From: an uncultured Acholeplasmataceae bacterium
GTDB lineage: Bacteria; Bacillota_I; Bacilli_A; Acholeplasmatales; Acholeplasmataceae
Direction of reading: 5' to 3'
DNA length: 64,000 nt
Assembly: GCA_927441705.1 (NCBI GenBank)
Contig: CAKMKH010000017.1
Location: forward strand, 24,529-88,528
The translations under genes and the position numbers were made by a program. Of the stretch, positions 4,590-55,626 are shown piece after piece; position 1 is the stretch's first letter; each line of letters begins with the position of its first letter. The notes under the pieces are model-generated. The model was not told the DNA's origin, did no database searches, and saw only the letters and a program-made list of their open reading frames with translations.

Positions 4590-5591
4590 TTAGTTATGTT
4601 TTGTAGAATCACGTGTTACGATATAATGCGGTAAAATGATTCTAATATTGTCTACATCTTTAGAGTTCATTAATTTGGTTAATAATCTCATTGATACAGC
4701 ACCTATATCATACACTGGAACATCAATTGATGTCAAGTTAGGTCTAGATAAAAGTGCGTATTTAGTATTTTGGAATCCTGCAACAGCTAAATCTTCAGGT
4801 ACTCTTCTGCCATTGTCTCTTGCGATATTCATAAAGCTTACAGCAATTGAATCTCTAACACCGATAGCTGCATCAATTTTTTTATCACTAAAGAACGTAG
4901 TAAAATGTTGACGATTTATATGTGTATCACCACTTGTTCTAAAGATTCTTGGCTCTAAGCCAGCTTCTAGCATCGCTTTTGTATATCCAGCTTCTTTTTT
5001 ATCATTAACTGAATAACGACGTGCAGTACTTAATAAATAAATATCTTTACGATGATCTTCAATCATCAATCTTGTGATTTCATATCCAGCTTTTTCATAA
5101 TCAATAGAAACCATAGGCACAGTTATATCATCAGTGACTACATTTGCTAAAACAAATGGAATTTGATTATCTACAAATACCCTTCTGACTTCATCAATAC
5201 TTTTTTCGCTTAATTCATCATTTAAATATAAGACTCCATCAAGTTGTTCTGCAACTATATCTTGTAATATATCATTAACATCCATTTCTTCTCTAATTGA
5301 AAAGAGTTTTACTGAATATTTGTAGTTTTGAGCAATATCACCAATACCACCTAACATTTCTGAAACAGATGCTCTAGTGACATCAGAAATAACGATACCA
5401 ACCGTCGTAGTTTTTCTACTTGCTAACCCTCTAGCAATAACATTTGGTCTGTATCCTAATTCTTTAATTACTTTCAAGACTCTTTGTCTTGTTTCTTCTT
5501 TAACTTTTTCAGGGTTATTTAAAACTCTCGATACTGTAGCCAGTGAGACTCCAGCCGCTCCAGCAACGTCATAAATGGTCGCGTTACCCAT
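4590..5591 (-). CDS. ccpA: LacI-family transcriptional regulator, CcpA-like
   Basis: NATIYDVAGAAGVSLATVSRVLNNPEKVKEETRQRVLKVIKELGYRPN HTH plus PBP-like effector domain. Confidence 0.85.
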   Translation of the reverse strand: MGNATIYDVAGAAGVSLATVSRVLNNPEKVKEETRQRVLKVIKELGYRPNVIARGLASRKTTTVGIVISDVTRASVSEMLGGIGDIAQNYKYSVKLFSIREEMDVNDILQDIVAEQLDGVLYLNDELSEKSIDEVRRVFVDNQIPFVLANVVTDDITVPMVSIDYEKAGYEITRLMIEDHRKDIYLLSTARRYSVNDKKEAGYTKAMLEAGLEPRIFRTSGDTHINRQHFTTFFSDKKIDAAIGVRDSIAVSFMNIARDNGRRVPEDLAVAGFQNTKYALLSRPNLTSIDVPVYDIGAVSMRLLTKLMNSKDVDNIRIILPHYIVTRDSTKHN

Positions 5592-5662
5592 GAAAATCAC
5601 CTCTTTTAATTTTAATATACATCCTTATTATATCATGTGATGTAAAGGCTTTCAAGCATTTT

Positions 5663-5687
5663 ATGAAAATATTTTCATTCGTTTTCA
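5663..5687. promoter_or_regulatory. Candidate operator upstream of ccpA-like gene
   Basis: Perfect 16-nt palindrome atgaaaatattttcat (5663-5678) overlapping ttttcattcgttttca (5672-5687). Confidence 0.45.
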
Positions 5688-5689
5688 AA

Positions 5690-5715
5690 AAAAATAAAGA
5701 GGCCAAGGCCTCTTT
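5690..5715 (-). terminator. Terminator after rplS
   Basis: aaagaggcc-aa-ggcctcttt followed (minus sense) by T-rich tract. Confidence 0.85.
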
Positions 5716-5722
5716 ATAAAAC

Positions 5723-6079
5723 TTATCGTTTTTCTCTGATTCTTGATGCCTTTGCAGACAACGTGCGAATATAAAATAATCTAGCACGTCTTACCTTACC
5801 TCTACGTGGTACCTCGATATGATCAATCGATGGTGAATGTATTGGAAAAGTACGTTCTACACCAATGCCGTAAGAAACCTTACGCACTGTAAATGTTTCA
5901 GAAATTCCTCCACCTTGTCTTTTAATAACAAGACCTTCAAATAACTGAATACGTTCACGGTTTCCTTCTTTGATCTTAACGAATACTTTAACAGTATCCC
6001 CAGCACCAAATTCAGGAACTTCTTTGATGTAAGAACTTGTGATTGAAGCAATCAATTCTTGCCCTTTTAATCTAGCCAT
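5723..6079 (-). CDS. rplS: 50S ribosomal protein L19
   Basis: [50 protein letters not shown]-terminal extension in the ORF track is leader sequence. Confidence 0.97.
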
Positions 6080-6084
6080 GTTCG

Positions 6085-6140
6085 TCTCACTCTCTTTCCT
6101 TCCAATGTTCTTGTTACTAAAACAGCGGACCATTGTGTAT
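6085..6140 (-). promoter_or_regulatory. Possible ribosomal protein L19 leader
   Basis: Minus strand ggtccgctgttttagtaacaagaacattggaaggaaagagag just upstream of rplS; resembles the Firmicute L19 leader from memory, not verified. Confidence 0.4.
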
Positions 6141-6219
6141 AATTATACGGCTCATATATTATAACAAGTTTATGGTAAACTTGCAACAATTTTTAATCAT
6201 TTTTTCCTAATCTAGTTGT

Positions 6220-6945
6220 TTATTTATCCGTTTTTGATTTTATCTCATCAAGGATTTGTTTTTCTTCATCTGTCATTTTGATGGTTTTAATTAAATCCGG
6301 ACGCTTTTGATATGTTTTTAAAATGCTTTGTCTTTTTCGCCAATTTTCGATGTTTTTATGATGTCCTGATTTTAATATCTCTGGCACATCAAAACCCTGA
6401 TAACTATCTGGTTTCGTAAACTGAGGATATTTTAACCATCCATTTTGAAGACTATCTTCTTCAGATGAAGCTTGTTGGATAACACCCGGAATCAACCTAA
6501 TGATTGAATCACTTAGTATCATCGCTGGTATTTCTCCACCAGTTAAGACGTAATCTCCAATAGAAATTTCTTCATCTATAAAATTATCAACCCTTGCATC
6601 TATACCTTCATAATGGCCACATATCAATATAATGTGCTTTTTTTGTGAAAGTTTAATTGCTTTTTTTTGTTTATAAACCTTACCTTGTGGTGTTAACATG
6701 ATCACATGTGTATTTTTAGTTCTTAATTTTTCTAAAGCATCATAAAATGGTGGAAATTGCATAAGCATTCCTACACCACCACCATAAATTGTGTCATCAA
6801 TTTTATTGTGTTTTTGATGTGCATAATCTCGTAATTGATGAAGATCAATAGTGACTAAATTTTGCTCAATTGCTCTTTTAATAATTGAAGTCTCTAAAAA
6901 TGGTTGGAAAAACTCTGGAAAAATAGTGATGATGTCAATTTTCAT
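6220..6945 (-). CDS. trmD: tRNA (guanine37-N1)-methyltransferase
   Basis: MKIDIITIFPEFFQPF, IDDTIYGGGVGM, ICGHYEGIDARV, SIGDYVLTGGEIPAM. Confidence 0.97.
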   Translation of the reverse strand: MKIDIITIFPEFFQPFLETSIIKRAIEQNLVTIDLHQLRDYAHQKHNKIDDTIYGGGVGMLMQFPPFYDALEKLRTKNTHVIMLTPQGKVYKQKKAIKLSQKKHIILICGHYEGIDARVDNFIDEEISIGDYVLTGGEIPAMILSDSIIRLIPGVIQQASSEEDSLQNGWLKYPQFTKPDSYQGFDVPEILKSGHHKNIENWRKRQSILKTYQKRPDLIKTIKMTDEEKQILDEIKSKTDK

Positions 6946-48527: not shown

Positions 48528-50219
48528 CTAAATCATATGCTTTAAACTGATGATTATTTCTGTGCCTTTATTAACTATTGAATTAAGCTCTATCTGGCCT
48601 TGATATTTAATCACAATATGCTTAACAATAGCCAATCCTAAACCTGTACCACCATCTAACCTTCCTTTTTCAACCCTATAAAATCTTTCAAACACTCTTG
48701 ATTGATGTTCTTTAGCGATACCTTTACCACTATCTTTTACTTTAAATATGATGCCTTCATCTATATTTTTGAGTTCAATATTGATGTTTTTATTTGATTC
48801 ACTATATTTATAAGCATTCTCAATAACATTCTTAAATAGTTTGGCAAAATCCATTGGATCACCATAATATTTAACCTGTTCAGCTACAATATTAACTTGC
48901 ATATTCTTATCTTTGTATGTCTCTTTTAATATATTTGTGATTTCATTTAGGGTATTTGTTAAGTCAATATCCTGATAAGACTCTTCTTTAATGTTTTCTA
49001 ATCTAGACAACATGAGCATATCTTCAACTAATGCAGCCATGAACTTTGTTTGATTGACAATCTTTAACGATATATCCTTGACTTCTCTGTCGCTTTTAAC
49101 CATATCATAGAGTATGAGTTCACTATATCCTCTAATGGCTGACAACGGTGATTTTAACTCGTGTGAAGCATGTGAAAAAAAGTCTCTTTTCATATGACCA
49201 ATTTGTCTTTCATCAGTCACATTTTTTAAAATCATAAGAATACTTGCTAAATCATTTTGATCAATATGCTTTTGGAGTGGATAAACATGTGAATCAAATA
49301 TTTGATCTTTCATTTTGATGTCTTTATGAAAATTGCTATCGTCATCTAGAGCATTATCAATGGCTTGATTTAAAGTTAAATCTCTTATAAATTTATAACT
49401 ACTTTGATTTAAAAAAGATTCATCGATGTCAAATAGCACTTTGGCATCTTGATTATAAAAGATTAGTTTTTTATCTGTATCAAATAATAGTATGGATTGT
49501 TTAATTTCATTTAAAATAAAATTTAATTGCTTTTGATAATTTTTAATTTGGTTTAAGTATCTAGAAGTTTCATAGTTAATTTCATTCATCTCATGAAGCA
49601 TTTCATTTATTTCTAAATAAGGACTATTTAAAGTCATCATTTGATAACTTCCTTTGTTAAGTAAGATTAGTCCTTGTTTAACCTTATCCCAAGGTTTAAG
49701 TAAATTCTTATTAACCTTTAATAATCCTGCGTAATAAATACCCCCGATGAGAAGACCACTAATTATAAGTGTCCATAATGCTTGTCTATATGTTTGAATT
49801 TGTGATGCTAGTGGTATCGATACTCTTAAGTAATACCCATTATCTAGCTGTTTGGCGATATATAATAGTTCGATATCAATGGTATCTGAATTTCTAATAA
49901 ATACGTTTCCTAAATCGATAATTTCTGGTCTTTCGCTTTTATCAGTACCAACTTCTAAATCATGGGTATCTGCTAAAACAAATCCATTTTCATCTAAAAT
50001 TGTAATTCTTCTTTGACTTTGGTCATATGAATTAACAAATGCCTGATCATTTTCAGCAAATTGCTCATAACTTGTTTCTACTTCATCTAGTAAAAAAGTC
50101 ATCATAGATTCTTGATGTTTTTTTTCAAATTGATATAAAGAAAAAAAGACAATCATAAAAAACAATATGAAAGCACTAAGTAGTAGCAAAATATTATTTC
50201 TTATAATAACCTTTTTCAT
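48528..50219 (-). CDS. phoR: Sensor histidine kinase PhoR-like
   Basis: FFSHASHELKSPLSAIRGYSELI H-box, KNVIENAYKYSE N-box, VKDSGKGIAKEHQSRVFERFYRVEKGRLDGGTGLGLAIVK. Confidence 0.9.
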   Translation of the reverse strand: MKKVIIRNNILLLLSAFILFFMIVFFSLYQFEKKHQESMMTFLLDEVETSYEQFAENDQAFVNSYDQSQRRITILDENGFVLADTHDLEVGTDKSERPEIIDLGNVFIRNSDTIDIELLYIAKQLDNGYYLRVSIPLASQIQTYRQALWTLIISGLLIGGIYYAGLLKVNKNLLKPWDKVKQGLILLNKGSYQMMTLNSPYLEINEMLHEMNEINYETSRYLNQIKNYQKQLNFILNEIKQSILLFDTDKKLIFYNQDAKVLFDIDESFLNQSSYKFIRDLTLNQAIDNALDDDSNFHKDIKMKDQIFDSHVYPLQKHIDQNDLASILMILKNVTDERQIGHMKRDFFSHASHELKSPLSAIRGYSELILYDMVKSDREVKDISLKIVNQTKFMAALVEDMLMLSRLENIKEESYQDIDLTNTLNEITNILKETYKDKNMQVNIVAEQVKYYGDPMDFAKLFKNVIENAYKYSESNKNINIELKNIDEGIIFKVKDSGKGIAKEHQSRVFERFYRVEKGRLDGGTGLGLAIVKHIVIKYQGQIELNSIVNKGTEIIISLKHMI

Positions 50220-50878
50220 TCGATATGATACCCCACACCTCTGATTGTTTTTATACCAACTTCAGCATGACTTGCTTTTAATTTTTGTCTAAGTGACTTA
50301 ATGTGCATGTCTAAAGTTCTTGATTCTCCAATAAAATCTGTGTCCCAAACAAATGTGAAAATCATTTCCTTTGATACAACATCATTTTGATTTTTAATTA
50401 AAAGTTTTAATATATCATATTCTTTATTTGTTAAATAAACTTGTTTTTGATCAATAGTGAATAGATGTTTCTTATCATCAATCAAAATATTTTTTAGTTC
50501 GAAAAGATGCTCGCCTTTAAGATTTCTAAGTCGAGCTTGAATTCTAGATGTTAATTCCAAAACACCAAATGGCTTAGTGACATAATCATCTGCACCTAAA
50601 TCTAGAGCTATAACTTTATCCATTTCCGTTTGTAGAGCTGAAATCATCATCACAGGAATTTTCTTATCAAGTTTTCTTATTAGCTTTAAAATATCTAATC
50701 CAGAAGCATCCGGTAACATGATATCAAGCAAAATCATATCTGGTTTTTGTCTCTTAAACGCGTCGATAAATGCTTCACCAGTTGAAAATCCAAACCCTTT
50801 AAACCCGGCATTTTCTATCGTTTTTTCAATGACATATTGAATAGCTTGATCATCTTCAACAAAATATATGATTGACAT
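50216..50878 (-). CDS. phoB: OmpR/PhoB-family response regulator
   Basis: IYFVEDDQAIQYVIEKT, DMILLDIMLPDASGLDIL, winged-helix SRTLDMHIKSLRQKL...IKTIRGVGYHIE. Confidence 0.92.
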   Translation of the reverse strand: MSIIYFVEDDQAIQYVIEKTIENAGFKGFGFSTGEAFIDAFKRQKPDMILLDIMLPDASGLDILKLIRKLDKKIPVMMISALQTEMDKVIALDLGADDYVTKPFGVLELTSRIQARLRNLKGEHLFELKNILIDDKKHLFTIDQKQVYLTNKEYDILKLLIKNQNDVVSKEMIFTFVWDTDFIGESRTLDMHIKSLRQKLKASHAEVGIKTIRGVGYHIE

Positions 50879-50889
50879 TGATATCCTCC

Positions 50890-51552
50890 TTAGAATAATA
50901 ACGTATTTTTATGTGTTCCTTTTACTATAAATATAATCCATTGAGCTATATTTACTGCATGATCTCCTACACGTTCAAAATATTTCGCAACCATAAGTAC
51001 GTATATTAGTTCATTTGCATCAATTTTATCATTTTTTAATTCAGTTGTCATCTTTAAGATAAGTTGTTGGAATAGATCATCAACTTCATCATCTTTAGCA
51101 ATCACAACTTTTGCGATTTCTTGATCGACTTGAACTAGTCCCTTTATGCTTAATAAGACCATTTCTTCAACAATTTGAGCCATATGTGTTGTGATTGGTA
51201 ATACTCTTTTATTGATTCCACCTTCAAGATGAAGTGTCATTTCTGCAATATCACTTGCATGATCACCAATTCTTTCTAAATCAGTAATCAATTTTAAAAT
51301 ACCTGTTACTAATCTTAAATCACTAGCAACTGGTTGTTCTCTCCAAATGATTTTTAGAGCTTGTTTAGCAATTTCTTCTTCTAATTGATCAACTTCATCA
51401 TCTTTTTTAATAACGATTCTTGCTAAATCGTGATCACTATTCTTAAATGCCTCTAGCCCTTCTCTTAAATTACTTAAAGCAAGATCTGCCATGTGTGCAA
51501 CATCTTTTTTTAAGCCTTCAATCATTTCTTCTAAATGTTGTCTAAGTGTCAT
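50890..51552 (-). CDS. phoU: Phosphate transport regulator PhoU
   Basis: PhoU repeats KKDDEVDQLEEEI and AKDDEVDDLFQQL; LERIGDHASDIAE / FERVGDHAVNIAQW. Confidence 0.95.
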   Translation of the reverse strand: MTLRQHLEEMIEGLKKDVAHMADLALSNLREGLEAFKNSDHDLARIVIKKDDEVDQLEEEIAKQALKIIWREQPVASDLRLVTGILKLITDLERIGDHASDIAEMTLHLEGGINKRVLPITTHMAQIVEEMVLLSIKGLVQVDQEIAKVVIAKDDEVDDLFQQLILKMTTELKNDKIDANELIYVLMVAKYFERVGDHAVNIAQWIIFIVKGTHKNTLLF

Positions 51553-51563
51553 ATATTTTTCTC

Positions 51564-52334
51564 CTATCCGAATCTACCTGTAATGTAGTTTTCAGTTTGT
51601 TTATGCTTAGGGGTAGAAAAGATGAAATTTGTATCTCCAAATTCAATGATTTCTCCCATTAAAAAGAATGCAGTTTTATCTGATATACGAGCAGCTTGTT
51701 GCATGTTATGTGTCACAATAACAATCGTGAAGTCTTTTTTTAATTCAACGATTAAGTCTTCAATCTTAGCGGTTGCTACTGGATCTAGTGCACTTGTAGG
51801 CTCATCCATTAAAATCACTTCAGGTTTCATTGCAATCGTTCTAGCAATACATAATCTTTGTTGTTGTCCGCCTGATAAAGATAGCGCGCTTTCTTTTAAT
51901 CTATCTTTAACTTCATCCCATAATGCTGCTTGTTTCAAGCTTTGTTCGACTATTTCATTAAGTTCATTTTTGTTTTTCATGCCCTGACATTTTGGTCCAT
52001 AAGCAATATTTTCAAAAATGCTCATCGGGAATGGATTCGGTTTTTGAAACACCATACCCACTTGTGTTCTAAGTGAAATGATATCCATTTGTGGAGCGTA
52101 AATATCTTTATCGTGATAATGAACATCACCTGTTATTTTACAAGTTTCAACTAAATCATTCATTCTATTTAAAGTTCTTAAAAATGTAGATTTTCCACAT
52201 CCAGAAGGGCCAATTAAAGCTGTAACTTCTTTTTCATAAATAGGAATTTCAACATTTTTTAGAGCTTGAGTATCTCCATAGAATAAATCTAGATTTTTTA
52301 TCTCAAATGTTTTTTTATTTTCAATTGTTGTCAT
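51564..52334 (-). CDS. pstB: Phosphate ABC transporter ATPase PstB
   Basis: [58 protein letters not shown]. Confidence 0.97.
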
Positions 52335-53542
52335 CTAATAACACCATACCTTCTCATAAATCTTTTTGATATAAATTTGATTGAAATATTTAAAATTAAT
52401 ACAATCAATAGTATAATTAACGCTATCGTTGAAGATAGTTCAAAGTTTGCTGGTTCATCAGTCATCATTGACCATATGTGAACAGCCAAAGATGTTGATC
52501 TATCTGTAAGATGAACTTCATCTTTAATTGATGTTCCTATCGCGAACACCAAAGCAGCACTCTCACCAATAATTCTTCCGATTGCAAGTAGGGTTGCTGT
52601 TAGTATACCGCTAAATGCATTAGGTAAAATCACTTTAAAAACAGTTTGTGTTTTACTAGCTCCTAAAGCTAGAGAAGCATATCTATAATCATCAGGAACA
52701 ACCTTTAGACTCTCTTCTGTTGTTCTAATGATAATTGGTAGTAATATAACAGCTAAAGTCATTGATCCAGAAATAAGATTTCCTGTCGTAGCTGTTGTTA
52801 AACCTATAGTTATTGGAACAAATATTGCAAGTCCCATCAAACCATAAATGATTGAGGGTACGCCTGTCAGTGTTTCTATAAATGATCTTAACAATCGATT
52901 AAATTTATTGTTTTTGGCATATTCATTCAAATAAATAGCTGCACCTACTCCAATTGGAAGTGCGAAAACTAATGTTAAAACAATTAAATAAAGTGTTGTT
53001 ATGATTGATCCTCTTATGCCTCCACCAGTAGTCGCAAACTCTAACTCTCTAATAGCTCCTTGGGCATCTAGCGTGTCTATCATAATTGAAGCCCCTCTAC
53101 TAGATAAAGCACTAGATGCGCCTTCAAATGCAATTCTAATAATCTCATAATCTACTTTTAACTCTATCACAGACTGTCCAACACCTTTATTGTTAAGTTC
53201 ATTAAATGGTGAGTCAGGATGCACATAGGTGACAACTACTACATTTTTACCTTGTAGATCTTTTTCATCTGTTAAAGCCACTCCCCATATGCTTGAATAA
53301 AAAGTATTCTCTTCAAATGATCTATCGGTCTGATATTCGTCCATTAATAGACCTTCATCTACATTAGCTATATACGTTACTGCAGTATAATTATGTGTGA
53401 TTAAGTCAAAATTTAATAGTTTATATCCATTAACAAAGACATATCCAATAATCATAAGTAATACAGCTAATGATACAAAAGCTGCACCATATGTAATACT
53501 TAGATACCCTTTTTCTTTGATTTTTTTATTTAACATGAACAT
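52331..53542 (-). CDS. pstA: Phosphate ABC transporter permease PstA
   Basis: [58 protein letters not shown]. Confidence 0.95.
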
Positions 53543-54503
53543 GACCTACCTTTTTCTTAATTGTGTTTAAAATAAGATTGGTCAATAATATAACAACCAT
53601 CAAAATAATACCTACTGAAAAACGTATATCATAATCAAGCCCTACTGTTTCTTTCATACCTTCGAGCATGGTTGTTGTCAAGGTTGATGTCGTATCTAAA
53701 AGATTAAATGATAACCCAGATCTTCTTCCACCTGCAACTAAGCTTACGGCAGTAGCTTCACCTAGTACACGTCCAATCCCTAAAATTGCTGAAGTAAATA
53801 TACCTGATTTAGCAGCTGCCAATACAACTTTGAAATTGGTTTGCATTGGGCTTGCACCTAAAGCTAGGGATCCATGTATAATCTCTTTGTCAACACTTCT
53901 AATAGCAACTTCACTAATTGAAGTGATTGTTGGAATTGTCATAATCGCTAGAACAATCACACTTGCTAATATGGAATTCCCACCTTTAGATTGATATCCA
54001 ATAAGAGCACTTAAGTTATAAACAAATTTCAAAACTAATCCAGCCCCAAATAATCCATAAATGATTGAAGGAATTGAAGCTAGAAGTTCAGTTACAGTTC
54101 TTAAACTTTCTGCCAGCTTTTTTGGTGCTATTTTCGCGATAAAAAGCGCTGTTAAAACACCTACTGGAAAGCTTATAAGTAAAGATAAGAACGCAATAAA
54201 TAATGTACTTATGATAATAAAGCCTATACTATATAAATTTGAATTAAAAGCCTCACCTGTTAACCAAGTGTTTCCAGTTATAAATCTTAAAAAATTTACA
54301 GTTCCTAATCCATTATTGTCGGATATAAATGGCGTAATACCCTTTAGTAAGATAACACCTGCGACAATAAATATGAACGATGATGATAAAATAGCGAGAA
54401 AAAATAATACATTTTTTACAAAAATATCTATAATTTTATTTTTCCCATTTTTTGAATTTCTAATGTTTGATAATTGTTGCATATGATCACCCTTTACACG
54501 CAA
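53526..54503 (-). CDS. pstC: Phosphate ABC transporter permease PstC
   Basis: ELLASIPSIIYGLFGAGLVLKF, LALGASPMQTNFKVVLAAAKSGI. Confidence 0.95.
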   Translation of the reverse strand: MRVKGDHMQQLSNIRNSKNGKNKIIDIFVKNVLFFLAILSSSFIFIVAGVILLKGITPFISDNNGLGTVNFLRFITGNTWLTGEAFNSNLYSIGFIIISTLFIAFLSLLISFPVGVLTALFIAKIAPKKLAESLRTVTELLASIPSIIYGLFGAGLVLKFVYNLSALIGYQSKGGNSILASVIVLAIMTIPTITSISEVAIRSVDKEIIHGSLALGASPMQTNFKVVLAAAKSGIFTSAILGIGRVLGEATAVSLVAGGRRSGLSFNLLDTTSTLTTTMLEGMKETVGLDYDIRFSVGIILMVVILLTNLILNTIKKKVGHVHVK

Positions 54504-54531
54504 GAAAAGACCTTCATAAGGTCTTTTCTCC
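54503..54531 (-). terminator. Intercistronic hairpin between pstS and pstC
   Basis: agaaaagacctt-cat-aaggtcttttct. Confidence 0.7.
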
Positions 54532-54546
54532 TATTTTTGTTAAGCA

Positions 54547-55500
54547 TTACTCGCTAATCAAATCTGACCACTTAGTAAATGTACCTTCATAAATTTTTCT
54601 TAAATCATCAGCAGTAACATTATTAATTGGGTTACTTAAATGAACGATTGCTACTATGGCATCCCATGCTAGTTGTCCATATTGTTCTTCAGGAATTGCT
54701 ACTCCATTTACTTCTTTTTCTGAATCTTTGAACGGTCTTGAAGCAAATCCAATATCTTTAGCAACTGATTCGTCTTTTTGATCACCAACAACACGTTTGT
54801 AAGCATCGCCTGATCCTGTATGGTCATGGTCAGCTACAAAGTTACCAGCTTTAGCACTAAATGCTTGAGTTAGAGCTTCTGCAACTTTTTGAATTGAATC
54901 CGAGCCTCCAAATCTAATTGTTACTGCACTGTTATCTTGGCTAGTAATTGGGTAATCTGCTTTAATATCATCCCAAGTTTGTGTTGCAGGAAGTGCAACT
55001 GCACCAGCATTATTGATAATATCTGCAGCATCTGTAGTTTCTAAGAATGCGATAAATGCATCAACTAAATCTTCGACATCTTGACTAGGGAAATCTCCAT
55101 CTTCACGAACCATCCAATTAAATGGTCTTTTTAAACCGTATGTATCATTAATTACATTTGCTTCACTAGGTTCAACACCATTAAATGATAAACCTTTAAT
55201 TTCATTTGTTAGACTTGATAGTGATACATAACCTATGCCAAATTCATCTGTTTGCATTGAAGTCATGATACCTGTATTATCTTTAATAACAAAACCTTCT
55301 ACTAAAACACTGTCACTTGCTTCAGCTTCGGGAAAACCAATCCCACCCATAAAACCTGCTCTTGTGCCTGATGTAGTATCTCTTGTATATACTGTAATAT
55401 TACTATCTGTATTAAAACCTTCTTCATTACCTTCACATGCTGCAAGTCCAAATGTTAATAAGACTGCCATAATTAAAACTAAATATTTCACTTTTTTCAT
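54547..55500 (-). CDS. pstS: Phosphate-binding lipoprotein PstS, circularly permuted domain order
   Basis: Lipobox LAAC; N-half VYTRDTTSGTRAGF...FGIGYVSLSSL...TYGLKRPFNWM, C-half VTIRFGGSDSIQKVAEALTQAF...TGSGDAYKRV...IGFASRPFKDSE...FTKWSDLISE. Confidence 0.88.
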   Translation of the reverse strand: MKKVKYLVLIMAVLLTFGLAACEGNEEGFNTDSNITVYTRDTTSGTRAGFMGGIGFPEAEASDSVLVEGFVIKDNTGIMTSMQTDEFGIGYVSLSSLTNEIKGLSFNGVEPSEANVINDTYGLKRPFNWMVREDGDFPSQDVEDLVDAFIAFLETTDAADIINNAGAVALPATQTWDDIKADYPITSQDNSAVTIRFGGSDSIQKVAEALTQAFSAKAGNFVADHDHTGSGDAYKRVVGDQKDESVAKDIGFASRPFKDSEKEVNGVAIPEEQYGQLAWDAIVAIVHLSNPINNVTADDLRKIYEGTFTKWSDLISE

Positions 55501-55531
55501 TTTTTGATCTCCTTTTTTATTTTCCATTCAT

Positions 55532-55597
55532 ATTATATCTAAGTGTGCTTTTATTAGAAATCATAATTTAGTAAGTGTTATGTAAAGAAAGTGTAAA
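55532..55597 (-). promoter_or_regulatory. pst promoter with candidate Pho box
   Basis: Minus strand TTTACActttcTTTACAtaacaCTTACT (11-bp periodicity, 55570-55597) upstream of TATAAT (55532-55537). Confidence 0.6.
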
Positions 55598-55626
55598 AAA
55601 AAACGCTCCTTATCTAGAGCGTTTGT
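55598..55626 (-). terminator. Terminator after ABC-2 permease gene
   Basis: aaaacgctc-cttatct-agagcgttt. Confidence 0.75.

Follow-up and report, generated by a model that had tools for sequence, protein, structure and literature searches.

The phosphate-binding lipoprotein PstS encoded in a 64,000-nt stretch of DNA from an uncultured Acholeplasmataceae bacterium (hereafter the window) has its two halves in reversed order, and is very probably a natural circular permutant that serves the adjacent PstCAB importer. Classical PstS, a textbook substrate-binding protein (SBP) of type II, runs from half A to half B. In the window protein half B comes before half A, as a reading of the sequence alone (the sequence-only reading) had proposed, and classical models align with it as two swapped pieces but as one piece once the halves are re-ordered. 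Permuted PstS proteins are real and widespread, and a structure is already in the PDB, since entry 4H1X is itself permuted; they have probably gone unreported as permutants.

Swapped halves and the position of the cut

The full pstS ORF extends from 54547 to 55527 on the minus strand (326 aa), but Met10, at 55500, is the likely start, with AAGGAG just 5' of it; the sequence-only reading had ended the gene at this same position. Cys31 of the lipobox is invariant in our alignment (A1). Half B contains the phosphate loop (R49, S53, G54 and T55) and the landmarks ITVYTRDTTSGTR, IGYVSLSSL and YGLKRPFNW, in that order, together with ITVYTRD, SGTR and LKRPF. Half A contains VTIRFGGSDS (with GGSDS), GSGDAYKR, IGFASRPF (with FASR) and IYEGTFTKWSDL, in that order, as well as S239 and KWSDL. 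The linker joining B to A is about 23 aa long, within the range of 15–28 aa seen in permuted relatives.

Table 1. Features of the window's pst region and of the permuted PstS protein
Feature	Position	Strand	Remarks
pstS, circularly permuted phosphate-binding lipoprotein (very probable)	54547..55500	-	317 aa counted from Met10
Signal peptide with lipobox LAAC (Cys31 in ORF numbering)	55435..55500	-	From sequence
PstS half B, residues 40–190	54958..55410	-	Corresponds to classical C-terminal half
B-to-A linker, PATQTWDDIKADYPITSQDNS, about residues 180–201	54925..54990	-	Joins old C- and N-termini
PstS half A, residues 199–326	54547..54933	-	Corresponds to classical N-terminal half
pstC, permease	53526..54503	-	TIGR02138 above cut-off
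pstA, permease, 403 aa	52331..53542	-	TIGR00974 above cut-off
pstB, ATPase	51564..52334	-	TIGR00972 above cut-off
phoU	50890..51552	-	TIGR02135 above cut-off
phoB-like response regulator	50216..50878	-	
phoR-like sensor kinase	48528..50219	-	
pstS-pstC intergenic hairpin	54503..54529		
Pho-box-like direct repeat, TTTACACTTTCTTTACA	55581..55597	-	About 80 bp upstream of pstS start
Terminator-like hairpin closing unrelated upstream ABC transporter operon	55601..55624	-	

In phmmer searches of the PDB, PstS aligned to 4GD5, 4Q8R, 1TWY and 4N13 in two segments with their order exchanged and to 4H1X as a single colinear match (residues 42–322); a profile built from 21 relatives behaved in the same way as the single sequence. 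TIGR02136 matched the native protein in two stretches (113.8 bits) and the sequence re-ordered to A+B in one (127.4 bits). Likewise, PF12849, with a cut-off of 27 bits, gave two stretches (83.5 bits) before re-ordering and one (96.5 bits) after it. Homology to the PF12849/TIGR02136 family is therefore present over both halves, whereas the linear A-then-B order of the family is absent from the native protein, which becomes colinear only after re-ordering. The two halves are complementary, with no segment missing and none duplicated.

An AlphaFold2 model built from 11 sequences (pLDDT 84.8, pTM 0.83) has the bilobed SBP fold with permuted connectivity; a model from the single sequence was discarded (pLDDT 33). 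When the retained model was compared with the PDB by Foldseek, a sequential aligner, 4H1X was the sole strong match (E 6.7e-23, TM 0.75/0.86), the runners-up reaching only E 2e-4 and TM of 0.41 or less, and among the 50 matches listed there was no recognisably named classical PstS except the weak 9L8J. The sequence-only reading had named an equally good alignment in sequential order as evidence against permutation. As the one strong sequential structural match is itself permuted, the comparison leaves the permutation standing.

The break does not fall at a natural inter-lobe boundary, as had been supposed, but inside domain II. In the structure of the related PhoX protein from X. citri, domain I comprises residues 26–100, 252–265 and 277–340, domain II is the unbroken stretch 101–251, and phosphate is bound by S34, S62, D80, R159, G164, T165 and N201 (PMC5439949). 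The window PstS is cut a few residues before R49, the equivalent of PhoX R159 and E. coli R135. Since the cut lies within domain II, lobe I should be continuous via the linker and both termini should lie in lobe II. The short linker would bridge the old N- and C-termini, both of lobe I; lobe II would be assembled from both chain ends and would carry the lipid anchor in place of lobe I; and halves B and A would close into a normal Venus-flytrap with phosphate between the lobes. Such a transfer of the tether from lobe I to lobe II would bear on how SBPs dock to ABC importers.

Operon, control and phosphate ligands

Profile matches bear out the canonical pstSCAB-phoU-phoB-phoR order previously read downstream of pstS (Table 1), and in all 27 of the permuted or double (B-A-B-A, hereafter BABA) loci examined the pstS gene is the first before pstCAB(-phoU). 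The pattern TTTACA-N5-TTTACA has a single match in the window, TTTACACTTTCTTTACA, with 0.07 expected; it is close to the PnpR box of S. pneumoniae, TTTACACAATCTTTACA (PMC4913102). Of 59 permuted loci, 30 have the same motif no more than about 200 bp ahead of pstS, as do 3 of 6 BABA loci; the rearranged control pattern gives 1. A longer three-repeat Pho-box pattern had zero matches in the genome. The window PstS is thus linked genetically to pstCAB-phoU, with a Pho-box-like site.

We compared the E. coli PstS ligand set T10, F11, S38, D56, R135, S139, G140 and T141 with the permuted proteins. All 104 permuted rows share R49, S53 and G54 (E. coli R135, S139 and G140) and S239 (S38) without exception, and 102 have Thr at T55 (T141). 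The position of F11 is occupied by S211, as in the classical rows compared, and that of D56 by S263, Ser being found here in permuted and classical Firmicute-type rows alike. At the position of T10, the window's subclade has Asp210 (GGSDS), and Asp occurs in 44 of the 104 permuted rows. Because Ser263 and Asp210 replace Asp56 and Thr10, affinity and specificity may differ from those of E. coli PstS. Asp210 might assume a proton-acceptor role, the Asp56 position being Ser here. No other PF12849 gene was found in the genome assembly. The core ligands, the operon and the Pho-box-like site agree with the earlier view of a functional SBP heading a canonical pst cluster, and on these sequence features the protein is almost certainly the genome's working phosphate receptor, as predicted.

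The window PstA has an extracytoplasmic insert of about 120 aa between TM1 and the permease core. The insert-bearing PstA proteins (387–457 aa) are those of the window and its close relatives and of another 20 operons in the large permuted clade, whereas those of Monoglobus-type permuted operons and of classical operons lack it (277–319 aa). Genome G239 holds both kinds, a permuted pstS with a 422-aa PstA (L184) and a classical pstS with a 311-aa PstA (L193). The insert may touch the PstS receptor. It has a PDZ-like look, but no significant PDZ match backs this: one insert matched PDZ_2 at E=0.04, and an insert profile finds no PDZ structure. Among the classical pst operons, three (L188, L190 and L197) have an unusually long PstC (407–444 aa), and L198 has a 593-aa PstA-matching ORF (4728–6506) and no separate PstC match, possibly a PstC-PstA fusion.

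Distribution and origin of the permuted order

The sequence-only reading had suspected a lineage trait of Clostridial type. Orthologues do share the order, so a lineage trait it is, but not a merely Clostridial one, as permuted forms occur in much of the window's phylum, in S. pneumoniae (SP_2084), in Monoglobus and in Treponema; with 4H1X and many relatives in B-A order, uniqueness is rejected. In the window's bacterial order, 36 of the 61 genomes gave matches, and every locus examined was B-A or B-A-B-A. Within the phylum, permuted forms (one colinear match) and classical forms (two swapped matches) coexist. Half-specific HMMs applied to the retrieved loci identified 119 BA, 41 AB and 10 BABA ORFs; copies retrieved more than once contribute repeatedly to these figures. 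Outside the phylum, where the distribution is based on plasmid records and the PDB, plasmids of Monoglobus pectinilyticus and Treponema saccharophilum have a pstCAB-phoU operon that begins with a permuted pstS. Two scans of viral contigs found no relatives, and a search of predicted viral structures gave nothing relevant. Two IMG/VR 'viral' contigs (L084 and L085) contain a permuted pstS with about 60% identity to the window gene, probably as host DNA beside a prophage. On the Tenericutes MO-XQ chromosome (CP017948.1) the pstS locus is present twice with equal match scores (L032 at about 1.63 Mb and L034 at about 1.73 Mb), the copies lying about 99 kb apart, owing to a recent large duplication or an assembly artefact.

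The annotation of the Monoglobus and Treponema proteins goes no further than 'substrate-binding domain-containing protein'. Against the curated TIGR02136 cut-off of 206.6 bits, the four permuted proteins that we scored all fall short (window 113.8, Monoglobus 189.1, Treponema 180.7 and 4H1X 180.3), whereas both classical controls pass it (216.8 and 259.5 bits), suggesting that pipelines under-name permuted PstS. With such scores and generic annotations, these proteins will be overlooked when genomes are surveyed for phosphate uptake.

Three other explanations of the B-A order were weighed. We consider it unlikely that the protein only mimics a permutation by joining pieces of two different SBPs, each truncated, so that its halves differ in ancestry. 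Permutants born by duplication consist of fused truncated copies by definition, so the option raised in the sequence-only reading, two truncated SBPs fused together, is indistinguishable from permutation by duplication; a fusion of unrelated halves is the part that the trees argue against. Measured against classical rows, the identities of the window's two halves are uncorrelated (Spearman 0.15), but those of other permuted proteins do correlate (0.44–0.56), the separate A and B trees each group the window's permuted clade (SH-aLRT 91 and 72) and give an equal minimum of 4 order changes, and the complementarity of the halves also speaks against such a fusion. The half-specific trees agree on the main groups, which tells against unrelated ancestries for A and B.

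A change of substrate (to another oxyanion or a phosphate ester) in a permuted PstS-family lipoprotein, with PstCAB following suit, appears very unlikely. Asp210 in the window's subclade and the extra ectodomain in PstA would fit such a change, but the core ligands are invariant, the control is Pho-box-like, pstCAB-phoU-phoBR is canonical, and the window protein is the genome's sole PstS. That the order reflects gene rearrangement, an assembly artefact or a decaying pseudogene is hardly credible. Broken copies do occur in a few relatives (L022 and L127), but the B-A order is found in many genomes, and orthologues up to 86% identical share it, one of them on a complete chromosome, so it is not a misassembly; the ORF is intact, and the strong conservation of its residues already refutes this explanation.

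Circular permutants usually arise via duplication. For permuted PstS, too, we infer that tandem duplication was probably the route: once the duplicated copies had fused, losing the outer halves would convert A1B1-A2B2 into B1A2. Five operons (L017, L018, L021, L031 and L125) are headed by a fused double PstS, B1A1B2A2, of 593–678 aa; in one of these proteins the PF12849 match is continuous across A1-B2, so that its central part amounts to a classical PstS. Tandem pairs of classical pstS genes were found at L148, L153 and L154. Together with these pairs, the BABA genes supply what permutation by duplication would need, whether from A-B to B-A or back, and the BABA proteins are plausible relics of that process. 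The two copies within each BABA protein are mutual closest relatives, which suggests repeated duplication or homogenisation. Broken or truncated BABA genes are present at L022 and L127 (ORFs of 123 and 497 aa; a 315-aa B-A-B remnant).

In the re-ordered PstS tree, half order needs at least 4 changes, but a topology with all permuted forms in one clade is not rejected by the AU test (p=0.188; subsets 0.42 and 0.40). In an independent tree of PstC, PstA core and PstB, the permuted operons form two clades separated by classical ones (at least 2 changes), and a single permuted clade is rejected (AU p=0.0195). Recurrence or reversal of the order change is therefore favoured, although PstS itself does not settle the matter. 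In the transporter tree, the PstA insert and the order change of the large permuted clade fall on one branch, and therefore represent one coincidence and no replicated correlation. It is possible, though we would put it somewhat below an even chance, that permutation or re-permutation of PstS has occurred repeatedly at one lobe II site via BABA-type intermediates that survive in present-day genomes, once together with a new PstA domain and modified docking. Classical, permuted and BABA forms in related genomes provide a natural series for testing the origin and cost of permutation.

Comparison with known binding proteins

The closest known structure, 4H1X, is SP_2084 of S. pneumoniae TIGR4, named 'phosphate-binding protein pstS 2' in the PDB. 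It shares with the window PstS the B-A order and an identical cut site and is colinear with it over residues 42–322 (TM 0.86 on the target), but the two are only about 24% identical and its linker has 17 aa against 23 aa in the window. SP_2084 is the pstS of the SP_2084-2087 pstSCAB operon (PMC8540371), and both Pst1 and Pst2 of S. pneumoniae contribute to Pi uptake (PMC4913102). In the open-access literature we found no paper calling PstS, or 4H1X/SP_2084, circularly permuted. Classical PstS proteins (E. coli 1IXH; C. perfringens 4GD5/4Q8R) resemble that of the window in having homologous halves and in core ligands, operon and regulation; they are in A-B order with their termini in lobe I, whereas the window protein is in B-A order with its termini predicted in lobe II.

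A circularly permuted SBP has been described in Treponema pallidum, the glucose-binding MglB-2 (Tp0684), for which a 'Type Ic' was proposed and whose permutation its authors suggest to be linked to membrane anchoring (PMC4990184). MglB-2 and the window PstS are alike in showing circular permutation, natural in both cases, in a lipid-anchored SBP. However, MglB-2 belongs to a Type I family and is cut elsewhere, strands of its N-lobe having moved to the C-terminus, whereas the window protein, a member of the PF12849/PstS family with another fold type and cut, falls outside the 'Type Ic' group.
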